This document shows, piece by piece, positions 23,775 through 38,101 of a DNA stretch of 44,807 nt; the first letter of the stretch is position 1, and every line of letters starts with the position of its first letter. A program made the position numbers and the translations under genes. Below the pieces are notes generated by a model. It was not told the origin of the DNA. It did not search any database and saw only the letters and a program-made list of their open reading frames with translations. Source of the DNA: Anaerolineaceae bacterium (lineage in GTDB: Bacteria > Chloroflexota > Anaerolineae > Anaerolineales > Anaerolineaceae); contig JAGOVY010000003.1 in assembly GCA_018060515.1 (NCBI GenBank), forward strand, positions 1 to 44,807. Reading direction: 5' to 3'.

Positions 23775-24009
23775 GAGGGTCGCGGGGTTGACACCCTCGC
23801 AGCTTGCTTTTTAGCGGAGAGGGTCGCGGGGTCAGCACCCTTGCAGCGAACGTTTTTTGTGAGCGGAGAGGGTCGCGGGGTCAGCACCCTTGCAGCGAAC
23901 GTTTTTTGTGAGCGGAGAGGGTCGCGGGGTTGGCACCCTCGCAGCTTGCTTTTTAGCGGAGAGGGTCGCGGGGTCAGCACCCTTGCAGCGAACAGTTTTT
24001 GTGAGCGGA
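23775..24009 (-). repeat. Tandem array of tRNA-Ser 3'-end repeats (five units)
   Basis: Five head-to-tail units begin at 23775, 23819, 23868, 23917 and 23961, with lengths 44, 49, 49, 44 and 49 bp, and the array runs directly into the tRNA-Ser gene at its right end. There are two unit types, a 44-bp form (A) and a 49-bp form (B); reading outward from the tRNA the order is B A B B A. Every junction repeats GCGGAGAGGGT, which is the complement of the tRNA 3' end plus the first trailer base. Each unit contains an imperfect hairpin (GGGTC/T...ACCC) and an A/T-run. On the - strand the array is the direct 3' trailer of the tRNA. The 378-base gap 23628-24005 holds only this array and the M24 promoter region. 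Confidence 0.9.
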
Positions 24010-24093
24010 GAGGGTGGGATTTGAACCCACGGTGACCACGAGAGCCACAACGGTTTTCGAGACCGCCCCGATAAACCACTCCGGCACCTCTCC
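24006..24093 (-). tRNA. tRNA-Ser (anticodon CGA)
   Basis: An 88-base class II tRNA on the - strand. The acceptor stem GGAGAGG / CCTCTCC is perfect, followed by discriminator G. The anticodon loop CTCGAAA gives anticodon CGA (serine, UCG). The long variable arm typical of tRNA-Ser is present, and the T-arm is GTGGG-TTCAAAT-CCCAC. CCA is not encoded. It lies 26 bases after the stop of the beta-CASP RNase gene and is probably co-transcribed with it. The downstream trailer is a tandem array repeating this tRNA's own 3' end. Confidence 0.96.
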
Positions 24094-29280: not shown

Positions 29281-29985
29281 TTACGGCTGGCACACCACCG
29301 GTACCACGCCCCCTTCTTTGGCATTTAGCAGCAATCCCAGGTAAGGCGAAGGGTCGAGTGTATTCACTATTTCAAGCTCATTTAAGAAAGAGCCGTTGCC
29401 ATCATCTTTAACCACTGAAAAGTGCAAGTGCACCCCGGTGGGTTTACCCGGTGTGCCTGAATAGTTTCCCTGGTAGCCAAGCAATGTGCCTGCTTCAACA
29501 AAGATTTCGGTGCTGCCCTGTCTGAACTCTTTCACAATATAACTTTCACCCGACGGGTCAGCCATATGTGTATAGTAAGTCCAGATGGTTTGACCTGGAT
29601 TGAGCGGGTCTTCGGGCAGGCGGATAATGACGGAGGACTTCCAGCCGAACTTGCGGGTGAGGTAACCATCATATGCAGCATAAACCGGTACAACCCCTGG
29701 CTCTGCCCCGCCAAAAATATCAATCCCCTGGTGCTGGTGTCCCGGACGGAATGAATCATGCCAGATAAAGCCGATATAACCGCTGCTGGGCATGAGGAAA
29801 GGTGCCTCGCCGCAGCGAGTCTTGGCCTCAATACTCCAATCGGTGTGAGCAACCGGGTTATTGAGCCAGGCACGCAGCGGGAGAATGCGAGACCCCAGGC
29901 GCGAAGGATTAAACCAAAAAAAGTAAAGCGCTGCACCAGCGGCTATGACAAATAAAGCTCCACCAATAACCAGCTTCTGTTTCAA
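29281..29985 (-). CDS. Membrane-anchored M23-family peptidase
   Basis: A 234-residue envelope protein with an uncleaved-signal-like hydrophobic N-terminus (about residues 4-25). An M23 (LytM-type) domain then runs from about 75 to 215. The motif HQGIDIFGG gives H-x3-D, and YYTHM and HLHFSVV give the remaining zinc and catalytic histidines. All ligands appear present. Unlike the LysM/M23 protein at 11981 it has no LysM modules. The start is TTG with AGGA eight bases upstream, only four bases after the miaB stop, so it is co-transcribed with miaB. The bond cut and its partners are unknown. Confidence 0.8.
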   Translation of the reverse strand: MKQKLVIGGALFVIAAGAALYFFWFNPSRLGSRILPLRAWLNNPVAHTDWSIEAKTRCGEAPFLMPSSGYIGFIWHDSFRPGHQHQGIDIFGGAEPGVVPVYAAYDGYLTRKFGWKSSVIIRLPEDPLNPGQTIWTYYTHMADPSGESYIVKEFRQGSTEIFVEAGTLLGYQGNYSGTPGKPTGVHLHFSVVKDDGNGSFLNELEIVNTLDPSPYLGLLLNAKEGGVVPVVCQP

Positions 29986-32862: not shown

Positions 32863-33561
32863 ATGCCGCTTGACCTGTCGCGCATTAAAGGGTTGTGTTT
32901 CGATGTAGACGGCACTATTAGCGACACGGATGATGACTGGGTTGAAAGAATCTTTCATGCGCTGGCGCCAGTAAACAAGGTGTTCAGCGGGTTTGAGCGC
33001 AGGCGTTTCTCTCGTTGGCTGGTGATGACAGGTGAATCGCCAATGAACTTAATGATGTACTGGATGGATGCTCTCAGCCTTGATGATAATTACGCCAGGG
33101 CGTTTGAGCGATTTTCTCGGCGCGCTGAAAAGCCTTCGAAGCCCTTCCTCCTGATGCAAGGGGCGCGTGAATTGCTGGATGCAGCGCGCGCAGCATATCC
33201 GCTGACGATTGTGAGCGCCCGTGATGCCCACACTACGATTACATTCCTCAATCAATTTGAACTCGAGAAGCATTTTGTCAAGGTCGTCACCTCTCAAACC
33301 TGCGAACGCACCAAGCCGTACCCGCACCCCATCCGACATGCAGCCCAAGCCATGGGGATTGAGCCGCATCATTGTCTGATGATTGGCGACACCACTGTGG
33401 ATATTCTGGCAGGCAAACGGGCAGGGGCTCAAACGGTTGGGGTGTTGTGTGGTTTTGGCACCCAAAGAGAACTGGTTAAAGCCGGCGCAGATGTCGTCCT
33501 CAACAATCTAGAAGAACTACATGCCTTGCTGTTTGGCGTGTCGCCTATCGCTGCACATTGA
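32863..33561 (+). CDS. HAD-superfamily hydrolase
   Basis: A 232-residue phosphatase-like protein. Motif I is CFDVDGTISD, with the nucleophile D14 and acid D16. Motif II is LTIVSARDAHT, the motif III lysine is in ERTKPYPHP, and motif IV is LMIGDTTVDILAGKRAG. A helical cap lies between motifs I and II (about 25-100), so it belongs to the C1-cap (phosphoglycolate-phosphatase-like) subgroup. The substrate is not predictable. It starts three bases after the HEXXH gene stop and is co-transcribed. Its last 17 bases overlap the 3' end of the convergent penicillin-binding-protein gene. Confidence 0.85.
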   Translation: MPLDLSRIKGLCFDVDGTISDTDDDWVERIFHALAPVNKVFSGFERRRFSRWLVMTGESPMNLMMYWMDALSLDDNYARAFERFSRRAEKPSKPFLLMQGARELLDAARAAYPLTIVSARDAHTTITFLNQFELEKHFVKVVTSQTCERTKPYPHPIRHAAQAMGIEPHHCLMIGDTTVDILAGKRAGAQTVGVLCGFGTQRELVKAGADVVLNNLEELHALLFGVSPIAAH

Positions 33562-36439
33562 AGTTTACCGTTGCTGATTGCTGAAAATTACCGGCTGTGT
33601 CCCAGGCTTTGAGAACTACTTCATAAGTATCTGATTCTGCGATTAATGGGTAGGTGAATGGTGGCGTGGTCTGCTCCATCACCTCTCTGCCGTTCACCCA
33701 CCATTCCACGCGTGCAATGCCTGAAGCATCTTCTGCGGAGGCGGAGAGGGTAACTCGCCCAGCCAGCGCTACAACCGTTTGGTTGTCAGACGGCTGAATG
33801 ATTTGTACAAATGGCGGGGTGTTGTCAATCGTTACCTGCGTGTAAGCGGTGTGAATCAGGTTTTGCTGATCCACAACACTCAGCCGGATGGCATACATGC
33901 CATTCAAGCCGCTGGTATCAAACTCAGCCAGGGTTCCAGCACTTACCGGCTGTGTGGATTCAGCCACTTTCAGCCACTTGCTCGGGAAGATCCCCTGGCC
34001 CGCCTGCACCTGATAAGAAGAAAAGCCTTCGCCGCCAGCCGTGCCGGTGATCAGAATTTTCCCCGCCACCGTGGATAGTAGAGCGGGATACGCGATATTT
34101 ACATCGGGGTTGATATTGCCAATTTGGATGACATCGTACCCCTGCGGGATAATGCCGATACCTTCCCGCTTCGCCCAGTCACGCCCCTCAGCGGGGATGT
34201 TCATCAGCAACTGCTCTTCCACCAGCGCCGCCGGTGAAAAAACGGTTGCCAGCAGCCCTGTTTCACGGTTAATCTTCACCCTTGCAAAAAGCGTGTCAGT
34301 CAGGTTGGGCTCGTTACCCTTGAGAAAAACGTCATAAACCTGATTTGGGCAGTCGGCTGTGGGGAGCATGCCCGAGGGACTGCATACCCTCAGCGAGGTG
34401 ACCCCTTCAGGCGTTGCCCAGCCCTCAAATGCCGGCTGCTGAAGGAGATATGTTGAAAGTGCGTGTAATATGCCTGCGGGCATTCTCTCGCTCAATCGCG
34501 GAGCGCCCTGCCCCGATGCAGTTTCTGGTCCCATCCACACCAGCACGAGGCGGTCGGAGGTGTAGCTCACGCCCCACACCTGGCGCTGATCATCGGCGCT
34601 GCCGCTGGCAAAAGCAGCTTGCGAAGCCACCTCGATCTCATTGGCAGGGATCTGCCCCTGCCAGCGCGCACGCGCGTCGCTGAGGATATGATTGACCAGA
34701 TAGGCGACACTATCGCTGACGATGACGGCTTCGGCAGCAGCCGGTTTTTGCCAGATTGACTGCCCGCCGAGCGTAAAAACCTGATTGACCATTTCAGGCA
34801 GAATTTCGCCTGTTTCCGCCTGCAGCTGGCCGTTGCGCACCCCCATATTCGCCAACGTTCCAAACGCAGCCGCCACCTGCAGCAGGCTGTTCTCGCTCCC
34901 GCCCAATAGCGGAGAGGCATCATCGGGCGCGTTCTGCAATCCCTGCATGCCAATCAATGCCGCATAACGCCAGGTGGTATACGCGCCGGTTTCCACGGCC
35001 AGGTTGGCAATCGGGTTAAGGTAGCCGTTCGCAACCGATGAACGTATGTTCACAGCGCCGCGGTAATGCCCATTAGAAATTCCCAGTGAGTTGGTGTAAG
35101 CCGGAATATCCCACAACAGGCTGGCTGGCGAATAGCCCTGTGTAAATGCGCTGAGCGCCACAAACGGAGAAAGCAATGACCCGGGCTGATAACGCCTGAT
35201 TTGGATCGGGTCACTACCGTTTTTCTGCGGCTCATGATAGGCCAGCACCTCTCCCGTTTTCGGGTTCAACACCACCCCGGCTGCCGCCAATGGAACGGTT
35301 CCCAAAGTGGTTAAGGCTTGAACAGGCAAATGGAGGGCGGCTGCGCATAAATGCTCGTCAGGCGCCACCACGCTTTTTCCACGTTGTCTGATTCGGTTCA
35401 ATTGAGTATCTGAGGTGCAAACCAACTGCTGCTGCAAATCGGCATCCAGCGTGGTAACCACCAGCAGACCGCCGCGGTGCAATCGCTGCAGGCTGATTTC
35501 ACTCGCCAGGCGTTGATCCACCAGCAGAGCCAACCCGGCGGCACTGTCAGGGTCATCAGCGGGTGGCTGGCGCAGGTTGATGTTTTCGGCCAGCGCCTGC
35601 TCGTATTCTTCGCGCTCAATCGTGCCGGAGGCAAGCATCTGCGCGAGAAAATCCTGCTGCCGGCTGAGCGCGGCTGCCGGCGCAGTGTGTGGCATTAGCG
35701 TTGGGTGATCGATCAACGGAATTAATAGCGCCGCCTCTGCCAGGGTTACCTCTGCCGCTGACTTGCCCAGATACAACTGCGCCGCACTCTCCACACCGTA
35801 GGTATAACCGCCAAACCAGGCGCTGTTCAAGTACCATTCAAGCGTTTTCGCGCGCCCATAGTGATTCACCACCTGCGCGGCAAGCAGACGCATACGCAAT
35901 GAACGGGTGATGGTGGGCGCCTCATCCCACAAGAGCAGATCACTGACCAGTCGCTCGGCAATTGTCATGGGTTCCGATGCCTGCCAATGGAGCAGGCTGA
36001 AGCCGGGGCTTGCCCAGAAGCCAGGCTCATAAGCCGCCACGACAGCGCGCACCAGCTGCGGGCTGATAAAAGTACCCTCATCAGGGTTTATGGATAGGAA
36101 TTTTCTTTCAACGCCTTCATTTTGATAGGTATACAGTACCGTCAGGGCGTCGCGGTCCAAGAGCTTGGTTGGCTGCAGCAGTTCACCGTGTGTGTTGTCA
36201 AGCAATATGGGCAGCGTATCAATCGAAGGCAATTCGTGCAGCGCCTGTGAGGACGCGGTTACAGCCAGAACAAAGAAAGCAGCCGCCGCCAGCGTAAAAA
36301 GTACAGCCCCAACCCGCGCGCTGACGCCCAAAAATCGGTTGTTGCGCTGTGTGCGCTTCAGCGCAGAAAGGCGGCGGTTTTTGCGCAGAAAGTAAAGCGA
36401 GGTTTTATGCACCAGCCCTCGTTTCAGCCATCGGCACAC
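33545..36439 (-). CDS. Class A penicillin-binding-protein-like protein (PBP1C type) with most catalytic residues replaced
   Basis: A 964-residue envelope protein: a basic cytoplasmic tail, a membrane segment at about 42-64, a GT51 glycosyltransferase fold (about 120-260), a transpeptidase fold (about 385-650), the PBP1C-like CSPSG...DCP region (about 680-710) and an Ig-like C-terminal domain (about 870-962). In the GT51 part the ED pair before Phe reads Y137-E138, the following His is S144, and the RKxxE glutamate is M183. In the transpeptidase the S421 nucleophile is kept, but SxxK reads SLLS (Lys to S424), SxN reads Y473-L-N475, and KTGT reads ASGS (611-614). The fold is kept over the full length without stop or frameshift, so it is probably a structural or regulatory pseudo-enzyme. 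GTG at 36439 lacks a ribosome-binding site; GTG at 36412, with GAGGG upstream, is the better start. Confidence 0.85.
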   Translation of the reverse strand: MCRWLKRGLVHKTSLYFLRKNRRLSALKRTQRNNRFLGVSARVGAVLFTLAAAAFFVLAVTASSQALHELPSIDTLPILLDNTHGELLQPTKLLDRDALTVLYTYQNEGVERKFLSINPDEGTFISPQLVRAVVAAYEPGFWASPGFSLLHWQASEPMTIAERLVSDLLLWDEAPTITRSLRMRLLAAQVVNHYGRAKTLEWYLNSAWFGGYTYGVESAAQLYLGKSAAEVTLAEAALLIPLIDHPTLMPHTAPAAALSRQQDFLAQMLASGTIEREEYEQALAENINLRQPPADDPDSAAGLALLVDQRLASEISLQRLHRGGLLVVTTLDADLQQQLVCTSDTQLNRIRQRGKSVVAPDEHLCAAALHLPVQALTTLGTVPLAAAGVVLNPKTGEVLAYHEPQKNGSDPIQIRRYQPGSLLSPFVALSAFTQGYSPASLLWDIPAYTNSLGISNGHYRGAVNIRSSVANGYLNPIANLAVETGAYTTWRYAALIGMQGLQNAPDDASPLLGGSENSLLQVAAAFGTLANMGVRNGQLQAETGEILPEMVNQVFTLGGQSIWQKPAAAEAVIVSDSVAYLVNHILSDARARWQGQIPANEIEVASQAAFASGSADDQRQVWGVSYTSDRLVLVWMGPETASGQGAPRLSERMPAGILHALSTYLLQQPAFEGWATPEGVTSLRVCSPSGMLPTADCPNQVYDVFLKGNEPNLTDTLFARVKINRETGLLATVFSPAALVEEQLLMNIPAEGRDWAKREGIGIIPQGYDVIQIGNINPDVNIAYPALLSTVAGKILITGTAGGEGFSSYQVQAGQGIFPSKWLKVAESTQPVSAGTLAEFDTSGLNGMYAIRLSVVDQQNLIHTAYTQVTIDNTPPFVQIIQPSDNQTVVALAGRVTLSASAEDASGIARVEWWVNGREVMEQTTPPFTYPLIAESDTYEVVLKAWDTAGNFQQSATVNFNVQR

Positions 36440-36618: not shown

Positions 36619-37060
36619 GGTTTGAAACTTAGCGTCCTTCGCGCCTTCGCGGTTGATCCCAGTCGCCCCCACGAGCGAACGGTTTGCAACTTAGCGTCCT
36701 TCGCACCTTTGCGGTAAGAAACAAACCGCCTCCCAAACGGAAGGCATGGTTTGCAACTTAGCGCTCTTCGCGCCTTTGCGGTAAGAAAAAAGCCGTCTCC
36801 CGCACGGAAAGATCGGTTTGCAACTTAGCGTCCTTCGCGTTTTTGCGGTAAGAAAAAAACCGCCTCCCGCACGGAAAGATTGGTTTGCAGCTTGGCGTCC
36901 TTCGCGCCTTTACGGTAAGAAAAAAGCCGTCTCCCGCACGGAAAGATCGGTTTGCAACTTAGCGTCCTTCGCGTTTTTGCGTTAAGAAAAAAACTGCCCC
37001 CTCCACAAAAAGCATGGTTTGCAACTTAGCGTCCTTCGCGCCTTTGCGGTTGATCCCATT
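36619..37060. repeat. Intergenic tandem array, seven copies of a 62-67-bp unit
   Basis: Copies begin (at GGTTTG) at 36619, 36681, 36748, 36815, 36882, 36949 and 37016: one spacing of 62, then five of exactly 67. The core GGTTTGCAACTTAGCGTCC followed by TTCGCGCCTTTGCGGTAAG is well kept; the linker (CCGTCTCCCGCACGG, a small hairpin) varies more. The core can form an imperfect hairpin from CTTAGCG and CGGTAAG. Read on the - strand a unit translates to REGAKDAK-like peptides, but no frame is continuous across the array. It fills the 693-base gap between two divergently transcribed envelope genes. There are no spacers, so it is not a CRISPR array. Confidence 0.9.
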
Positions 37061-37119: not shown

Positions 37120-37125
37120 TATAAT
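37120..37125 (+). promoter_or_regulatory. -10 box for a possible leaderless lipoprotein mRNA
   Basis: CGGGTTATAAT places TATAAT seven bases before the ATG at 37133. It is identical over 11 bases to the box before the RNase D-like gene. Confidence 0.45.
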
Positions 37126-37132
37126 GCAAATT

Positions 37133-38101
37133 ATGAAAAAAGCTGTTCAACTGTTGTTTTTAATGGCGCTGCTCATCACGCTCTCCGCTTGCAGCGGGCA
37201 AACGCAGCCCCCCGCGCCGCAGCCCAGCCTGGCGGTGAAGCTCACTCCATTTCAGACGATGACCAGCACGCCAACGATTACACCAACCCCCGAAGGCTTG
37301 CCGGCCAATACGCCCGTGCCCACCCTCACCGCCACGCCTCAGACGTATGAAATGAAGCTCAATGACACTTTCTACAGCGTGGCTGAAAAGTTCGGCGTGA
37401 CGGTTGAAGAACTCCAGGCGGCCAACCCTGAGGTACACCATCTGTACATCAACATCGGCACGCAGCTGCTCATTCCCGCTGCCAAAGCAACCCCGGCTGC
37501 CACCAGCGCCGCCACCCCCATCACTTATAATTTAACATTTGCAGAGCCCTACTGCTTCCCCTCGCTCACCGGCGGGCTGCACTGTTTTGCCCTGATCACC
37601 AACGAAGAAGAGCAGACGCTAAGCAGCCTCAGCGCCGAGTTCACCCTCAGTGACAGCGAAAGCGGAGAAGTCATCCACCAGCAGGCAGATCTGCCGCTGG
37701 CGCACCTTTCGCCCGGCGAAAGCCTTCCTTTTTATCTCTTCTTTCCACCCCCTGTTTTTAGTCAACCACAAGTTGCGGTTACCCTCGTTTCAGCCAGCGA
37801 GGCGCGCCTCGAAGATGGAGCTGCGGTCTCAGCGGCGGTGGAAGAGCTGAAAGTAACCATCGCCGTAGACGGCGCCTCAGCCGGTGTCAGCGGAACCATC
37901 GCCTTCGAAGGCTCAGAACCTCCGGGCGAGGTGGTTTTGCTGGCAGTGGCGTATGACGCTTCAGGGCGGGTGGTTGGAATCCGCCGCGGCAGCCTTCACC
38001 AGGAATGGGGCGGCAGTGATACCCCCACTTTCAATATCATTGTGTTCAGCGGTGGCGGGGTCATCGACCATGTGCTTGTTTTTGCAAGCGCAGAAAATTA
38101 A
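37133..38101 (+). CDS. LysM-domain lipoprotein
   Basis: A 322-residue secreted lipoprotein. The signal peptide MKKAVQLLFLMALLITLSAC ends in a lipobox, so Cys20 should be lipidated. A Thr/Pro-rich linker (about 25-75) leads to a LysM module (about 77-122, NDTFYSVAEKFGVTVEELQAANP) that should bind peptidoglycan. A C-terminal beta-rich region of about 190 residues follows, which I do not recognise; it looks like an FxLyD-type or Ig-like module. The frame extends upstream to 37019, but that part lies in the repeat array. The ATG at 37133 gives a perfect signal peptide. No Shine-Dalgarno sequence is seen. It faces the PBP-like gene across the repeat array, and both are envelope genes. Confidence 0.82.
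   Translation: MKKAVQLLFLMALLITLSACSGQTQPPAPQPSLAVKLTPFQTMTSTPTITPTPEGLPANTPVPTLTATPQTYEMKLNDTFYSVAEKFGVTVEELQAANPEVHHLYINIGTQLLIPAAKATPAATSAATPITYNLTFAEPYCFPSLTGGLHCFALITNEEEQTLSSLSAEFTLSDSESGEVIHQQADLPLAHLSPGESLPFYLFFPPPVFSQPQVAVTLVSASEARLEDGAAVSAAVEELKVTIAVDGASAGVSGTIAFEGSEPPGEVVLLAVAYDASGRVVGIRRGSLHQEWGGSDTPTFNIIVFSGGGVIDHVLVFASAEN

Follow-up and report, generated by a model that had tools for sequence, protein, structure and literature searches.

The window analysed here, a stretch of 44,807 nucleotides, comes from an Anaerolineaceae genome of 2.05 Mb that is 97% complete. On its minus strand lies an open frame of 964 codons (P0001) without stop or frameshift. The likely start is the GTG at codon 10 (position 36412), because relatives carry Met there (M10 is nearly invariant), which gives a protein of 955 residues. 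The features of the locus are listed below.

33545–36439, minus strand: open frame of the pseudo class A PBP, 964 codons, likely start GTG at 36412
36257–36313, minus strand: transmembrane segment, residues 43–61 (hydropathy; long helix 13–67 in the model)
35585–36172, minus strand: dead GT51 domain, about residues 90–285, flap between motifs I and II absent (Pfam, alignments, model)
34445–35290, minus strand: dead transpeptidase domain, about residues 384–665 (S421 kept; S424, G472, L474, A611)
34130–34411, minus strand: post-transpeptidase region, about residues 677–770, densely conserved, with invariant C686 and C697
33824–34102, minus strand: first C-terminal β domain, about residues 780–872, well conserved (conservation, model)
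33554–33814, minus strand: C-terminal Ig-like domain (Big_7), about residues 876–962 (Pfam)
36619–37050, no strand: array of 67-bp tandem repeats, unique in the genome, at the site where most relatives have a TPR gene
37124–38101, plus strand: divergent LysM lipoprotein gene (start could also be 37133)

Fold and active sites

By descent the protein is a class A PBP, with a membrane anchor at the N-terminus, then a GT51 and a transpeptidase fold. In Pfam the Transgly match begins at profile position 68, Transpeptidase falls slightly below its cut-off, and Big_7 is C-terminal. NCBIfam and PDB searches place the protein among class A PBPs, far under the cut-offs for named enzymes. Assignment as PBP1C was rejected (PBP_1c model 132.5, cut-off 494.2), as was a BiPBP_C domain (16.8, cut-off 26.8).

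Structure prediction and superposition, a check that had been set beforehand, show that the class A PBP fold is kept. The model has a mean pLDDT of 91.7 and its best Foldseek match is 3dwk (E 2e-30), and VIA superposes 531 residues on 5u2g (Z 35.2, rmsd 8.8) and 379 on 4oon (Z 33.5, rmsd 3.0). These VIA matches mainly cover residues 73–764 and therefore provide hardly any structural test of the two C-terminal domains. The membrane anchor and both folds are the same as in S. aureus PBP2 (3dwk), E. coli PBP1b and H. influenzae PBP1A (5u2g); the pseudo-PBP differs from these in lacking all catalytic motifs and the flap, and in having extra C-terminal β domains.

Alignment with intact homologues confirms the claim of a preliminary description of this DNA, that the frame encodes a full-length class A PBP-like protein with both enzymatic sites degraded. 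Most of its residue calls agree with the alignment. In the glycosyltransferase, the motif I Glu is Tyr137, the His is Ser144 and the Glu of RKxxE is Met183; in the transpeptidase, Ser421 of SxxK is kept, the Lys is Ser424, and KTGT reads Ala611-Ser-Gly-Ser. The Ser of SxN had been placed at Tyr473, but its aligned residue is Gly472, and that of the Asn is Leu474. Tyr473 occupies the middle of the motif, where many intact enzymes have Tyr as well. Ser421 had also been taken for the only transpeptidase residue remaining; it is indeed kept, but Gly613 is canonical too. The window copy thus has none of the glycosyltransferase motifs (motif I Glu-Asp, GGSTxTQQ, RKxxE), and of the transpeptidase motifs (SxxK, SxN, KTG) only Ser421 and Gly613 are left.

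The damage to the glycosyltransferase exceeds point changes, since there is neither a GGSTxTQQ motif nor a flap between motifs I and II. Columns in the flap region with R, A and G conserved in 98–100% of 60 intact orthologues are gaps in 81–82 of 82 dead rows, and in the model residues 138 and 159 have no helix between them. The flap of the S. aureus enzyme is described as part of the lipid-contacting jaw, within the stretch that joins motifs I and II (PMC6053601). KTG is not lost from the whole family: the dead clade keeps K611 and G613 almost without exception, and it is the window copy that has lost the Lys itself.

Two further checks had been set beforehand. Dead relatives, when aligned, lack the same catalytic residues, and a search for an intact paralogue found one intact class A PBP (C26) in the same genome. 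Together with the retained fold and the dN/dS of 0.08–0.19 described below, this strongly supports the identification of the window protein as a pseudo-PBP. The genome further encodes three SEDS proteins, three strong additional transpeptidases and one Glycos_transf_4 (MraY-type) protein. Its wall machinery is therefore active, with the pseudo-PBP as an extra.

A clade of dead class A PBPs

An initial contig scan with the single protein as query gave no match. A profile scan of named genomes gave 330 relatives, and the best 80 of these 330, which were retained, include Anaerolinea thermolimosa, Longilinea arvoryzae, Levilinea saccharolytica, Leptolinea tardivitalis, Bellilinea caldifistulae and Ornatilinea apprima. 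P0001 matches 59 of 61 related genomes (E 1e-10, paralogues included), the full-length relatives having mostly 33–53% identity; at E 1e-60 it matches 126 of the 150 genomes from its class. The dead clade is centred on Anaerolineales (Anaerolinea, Longilinea, Leptolinea and others). Several Anaerolineaceae genomes have no pseudo-PBP, and it is therefore not needed throughout that family.

The 196 proteins scored at 15 catalytic positions comprise 84 intact at the decisive positions, 108 dead in both domains, three mixed, and one cut by a contig end. Rows shorter than 700 residues and identical copies were meant to be removed ahead of counting. L054 has no matching frame of 500 residues, the partial duplicates L001 and L002 were left out of the tree, and L168, truncated by a contig end, was entered as intact. 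The mixed proteins keep the glycosyltransferase glutamates by alignment and have a dead transpeptidase, motif I being present and motif II lost. These three were counted as dead. The tree has 110 dead and 84 intact rows (194 in all), a ratio that is not a frequency, since the homologue set is not random (80 loci are the best 80 of 330).

In the tree of 194 a single branch separates dead from intact rows (support 83), and a core of 101 dead rows has support 100. In a mixture-model tree of 49 representatives the branch between 30 dead and 19 intact rows has support 100, as has the one between 29 intact and 40 dead rows in an earlier tree of 69. A single ancestral loss of catalysis therefore suffices, provided that the root falls on the intact side; several independent losses were rejected, as the trees require one change only. 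The motif I Glu-Asp survives in the early branches (lineages f33, f58 and a single f46 member), which have a dead transpeptidase and lack motif II; f33 members also retain a stretch at the flap position. The steps of decay thus differ among lineages, and the early branches fit a stepwise decay.

The dead clade is under purifying selection across Anaerolineales, beside intact synthases. Using our own Nei-Gojobori script, dN/dS is 0.08–0.19 for dead pairs (26 pairs, 24 computable) and 0.05–0.21 for intact pairs (n = 10). In four dead pairs analysed by domain, the dead glycosyltransferase and transpeptidase are about as constrained as the remaining, C-terminal parts. Conservation in 90% of the 82 dead rows holds for 158 columns, of which 118 are common with intact orthologues and 40 are specific to the dead clade. 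Among the latter is Asp472, present in 76 of 82 dead rows and none of 60 intact ones, which indicates that the cleft first changed shape and was subsequently fixed. Intact orthologues from Chloroflexota (such as L037–L043) have a similar length and C-terminal extension and share the 118 columns, but unlike the pseudo-PBP retain all 15 scored catalytic positions.

The preliminary description had argued that the frame has no stop or frameshift and is therefore under selection. The frame of 964 codons is indeed open, but an open frame alone is no proof of selection; the evidence for it comes from the dN/dS of the relatives, and is weak for the window copy. The clade thus has the character of a pseudoenzyme, with catalytic residues lost and fold and purifying selection kept, and the window copy shows this less strongly. 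Among the open-access papers searched, none was listed as describing a natural family of pseudo class A PBPs.

Neighbouring genes and a proposed role

The neighbourhood was surveyed at 67 loci with at least 11 kb of sequence (68 counting the window, for recurrent families). The commonest neighbour, at 26 of the 67, is a TPR gene of about 600 codons, immediately upstream on the same strand. All 26 loci fall in the window's 43-row subclade of the tree of 194, which contributes 33 well-flanked loci; of the seven that lack the gene, two start at the pseudo-PBP itself. Judged by predicted starts, 20 of the 26 pairs are separated by 3–21 bp and two by 102 bp, and four overlap, two of these overlaps being of the 4-base stop-start type. 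From its N-terminus the encoded protein consists of a helical repeat domain, a single membrane helix and, past the helix, a long TPR array; TPR parts lie on either side of that helix.

An obligate pairing of the two genes was rejected: co-occurrence in 37 family genomes is 21/8/3/5, which is not significant (Fisher p 0.10; G014 and G016 were scored as having the pseudo-PBP, although only part of it is present, at a contig end or next to the TPR gene). The TPR cluster had no match beside intact orthologues in the rows scanned, which have short flanks of 1–3 kb. In the window genome the TPR gene had no match, and in the window no significant trace.

Members of the LysM lipoprotein gene family lie near the pseudo-PBP in 24 of 68 loci, the window included. 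In the window this gene had been described as facing the pseudo-PBP, but the two are divergent, back to back. Its listed start, TTG at 37019, falls within the repeat array, and the signal peptide is read from 37124 or 37133. A second tandem array lies at 23813–24015 (49-bp unit, 4.2 copies).

A doubly dead protein whose shape is preserved, and which selection maintains across a whole group of Chloroflexota, is probably a non-catalytic helper in wall building. On balance we favour the reading that it is a pseudoenzyme derived from a class A PBP, serving as a scaffold or regulator of wall synthesis together with its TPR partner, in a role possibly reduced in the window species. It keeps the membrane anchor, the flapless glycosyltransferase fold, the transpeptidase fold and the C-terminal β domains. 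It would be located at sites of wall synthesis through contacts of the class A PBP type, and would there position or tune whichever synthases are active, either SEDS pairs or the intact class A PBP. In Anaerolineaceae, the transmembrane TPR protein encoded upstream may act with it, linking the cytoplasm to the outside. In the window species the partner is lost and the protein appears to be eroding, so the role may be reduced. A scaffold or regulatory pseudo-PBP had already been suggested in the preliminary description: the pseudo-PBP part is strongly supported, and the scaffold or regulator part, which draws on the operon partner and on conservation, is plausible.

There are partial parallels in known systems. 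LpoA has a TPR-like part. The LpoA-PBP1A pair, as described in PMC4111904, resembles the present one in joining a TPR-type partner to a class A PBP fold; LpoA is described there as an outer-membrane lipoprotein acting on an active synthase, whereas here the TPR protein spans the membrane and its gene adjoins that of a dead synthase. DipM and other degenerate LytM regulators are reported to be catalytically dead and to regulate autolysins (PMC10336132). They too are dead wall-enzyme folds retained as regulators, but DipM has another fold and acts on autolysins. For mycobacterial PonA2 a role in morphology is reported that needs neither catalytic domain (PMC10547480), and is in this sense a class A PBP role independent of catalysis, although PonA2 is a normal bifunctional enzyme.

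The window copy and alternative readings

The window copy differs at 31 of 171 conserved columns, compared with 13–20 in 12 genus mates, the columns having been defined as conserved in 59 rows outside the tested set (an earlier count used the column-defining rows). Among 27 family members, two deviate more and one equally. The intact paralogue in the same genome is normal, deviating at 9 of 416 columns. Asp472 and Lys611, nearly fixed in the dead clade, are both lost (Gly472, Ala611). From L077, the window copy is 1.23 times as distant as its sisters are on average, against 1.01 for the intact paralogue. An M23 peptidase gene at 29281–29985, a recurrent neighbour (11 of 68 loci, window included), has a distance ratio of 1.27 and is thus as fast as the pseudo-PBP. 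These differences suggest relaxed constraint on the window copy, from which loss of function does not follow.

The gene could also be heading for loss in the window species, its frame open and its function ended or nearly so, perhaps since the loss of the TPR partner. This would account for the changed columns, the replacement of D472 and K611, the raised rate, and the finding of repeats in place of the partner in a genome that is 97% complete. We nevertheless consider it unlikely, since all 964 codons are free of stops and frameshifts, dN/dS to the nearest relative is 0.17 (with dS saturated), and the subclade G001/G010/G012/G013, also without the TPR gene, has a pseudo-PBP that is still constrained. 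Across the family, loss of the TPR gene and erosion are not significantly associated (p 0.43). On the favoured reading, the pseudo-PBP is conserved in the order and eroding in the window species.

Two readings would give the re-shaped cleft a task of its own. One makes the protein a sensor, binding muropeptide or lipid II non-covalently in the transpeptidase cleft and signalling inward via the TPR partner. The cleft has indeed acquired fixed new residues rather than drifting at random (D472), and the partner has TPR parts on either side of the membrane helix, but it is absent from the window genome and several others, and neither the gene nor the neighbour families examined contain a recognisable kinase, protease or sigma factor module; we regard a sensor as improbable. 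Still harder to sustain is a re-tooled enzyme, in which Ser421, Asp472 and Lys611 serve another reaction: Ser or Thr421, Asp472 and Lys611 are frequent in the dead clade, but many members have Thr for Ser421, the SxxK Lys occurs in no dead row, and the window copy lacks both Asp472 and Lys611. Retention of the original catalysis by relocated residues, as reported to be possible for some pseudoenzymes (PMC10211241), is scarcely credible here, given that the glycosyltransferase flap and motif II are absent and that the alignments contain no conserved replacement, including any Glu at these sites.

A second protein of this genome was noticed in passing. Outside the window, L221:377–3016 (G000:C56) encodes a SEDS polymerase (PF01098) fused to a PBP module without an SxxK site. 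In the alignment with its relatives (L222–L258), Ser-x-x-Lys occurs in none of 33 modules showing the site (30 fused, three in separate adjoining frames), and 37 of 41 genomes have a match, some with the unfused SEDS part only. A SEDS polymerase fused to a second dead transpeptidase would fit an order that keeps PBP folds for contacts and not for chemistry. We tentatively raise the possibility that Anaerolineales use dedicated non-catalytic PBP modules (the dead class A PBP with its TPR adaptor, and the SEDS-dead class B-type transpeptidase) as a synthase-shaped control layer.

If so, a control layer apart from catalysis would show directly what PBPs do beyond chemistry. Non-catalytic roles of PBPs are usually approached with point mutants; here evolution did the experiment in an entire order, and intact orthologues in other families allow comparison with the dead clade. 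The gene is carried by cultured type strains (A. thermolimosa, L. arvoryzae, L. saccharolytica, L. tardivitalis, B. caldifistulae and O. apprima). Counts of PBPs based on annotation overestimate both synthases and β-lactam targets in these genomes.
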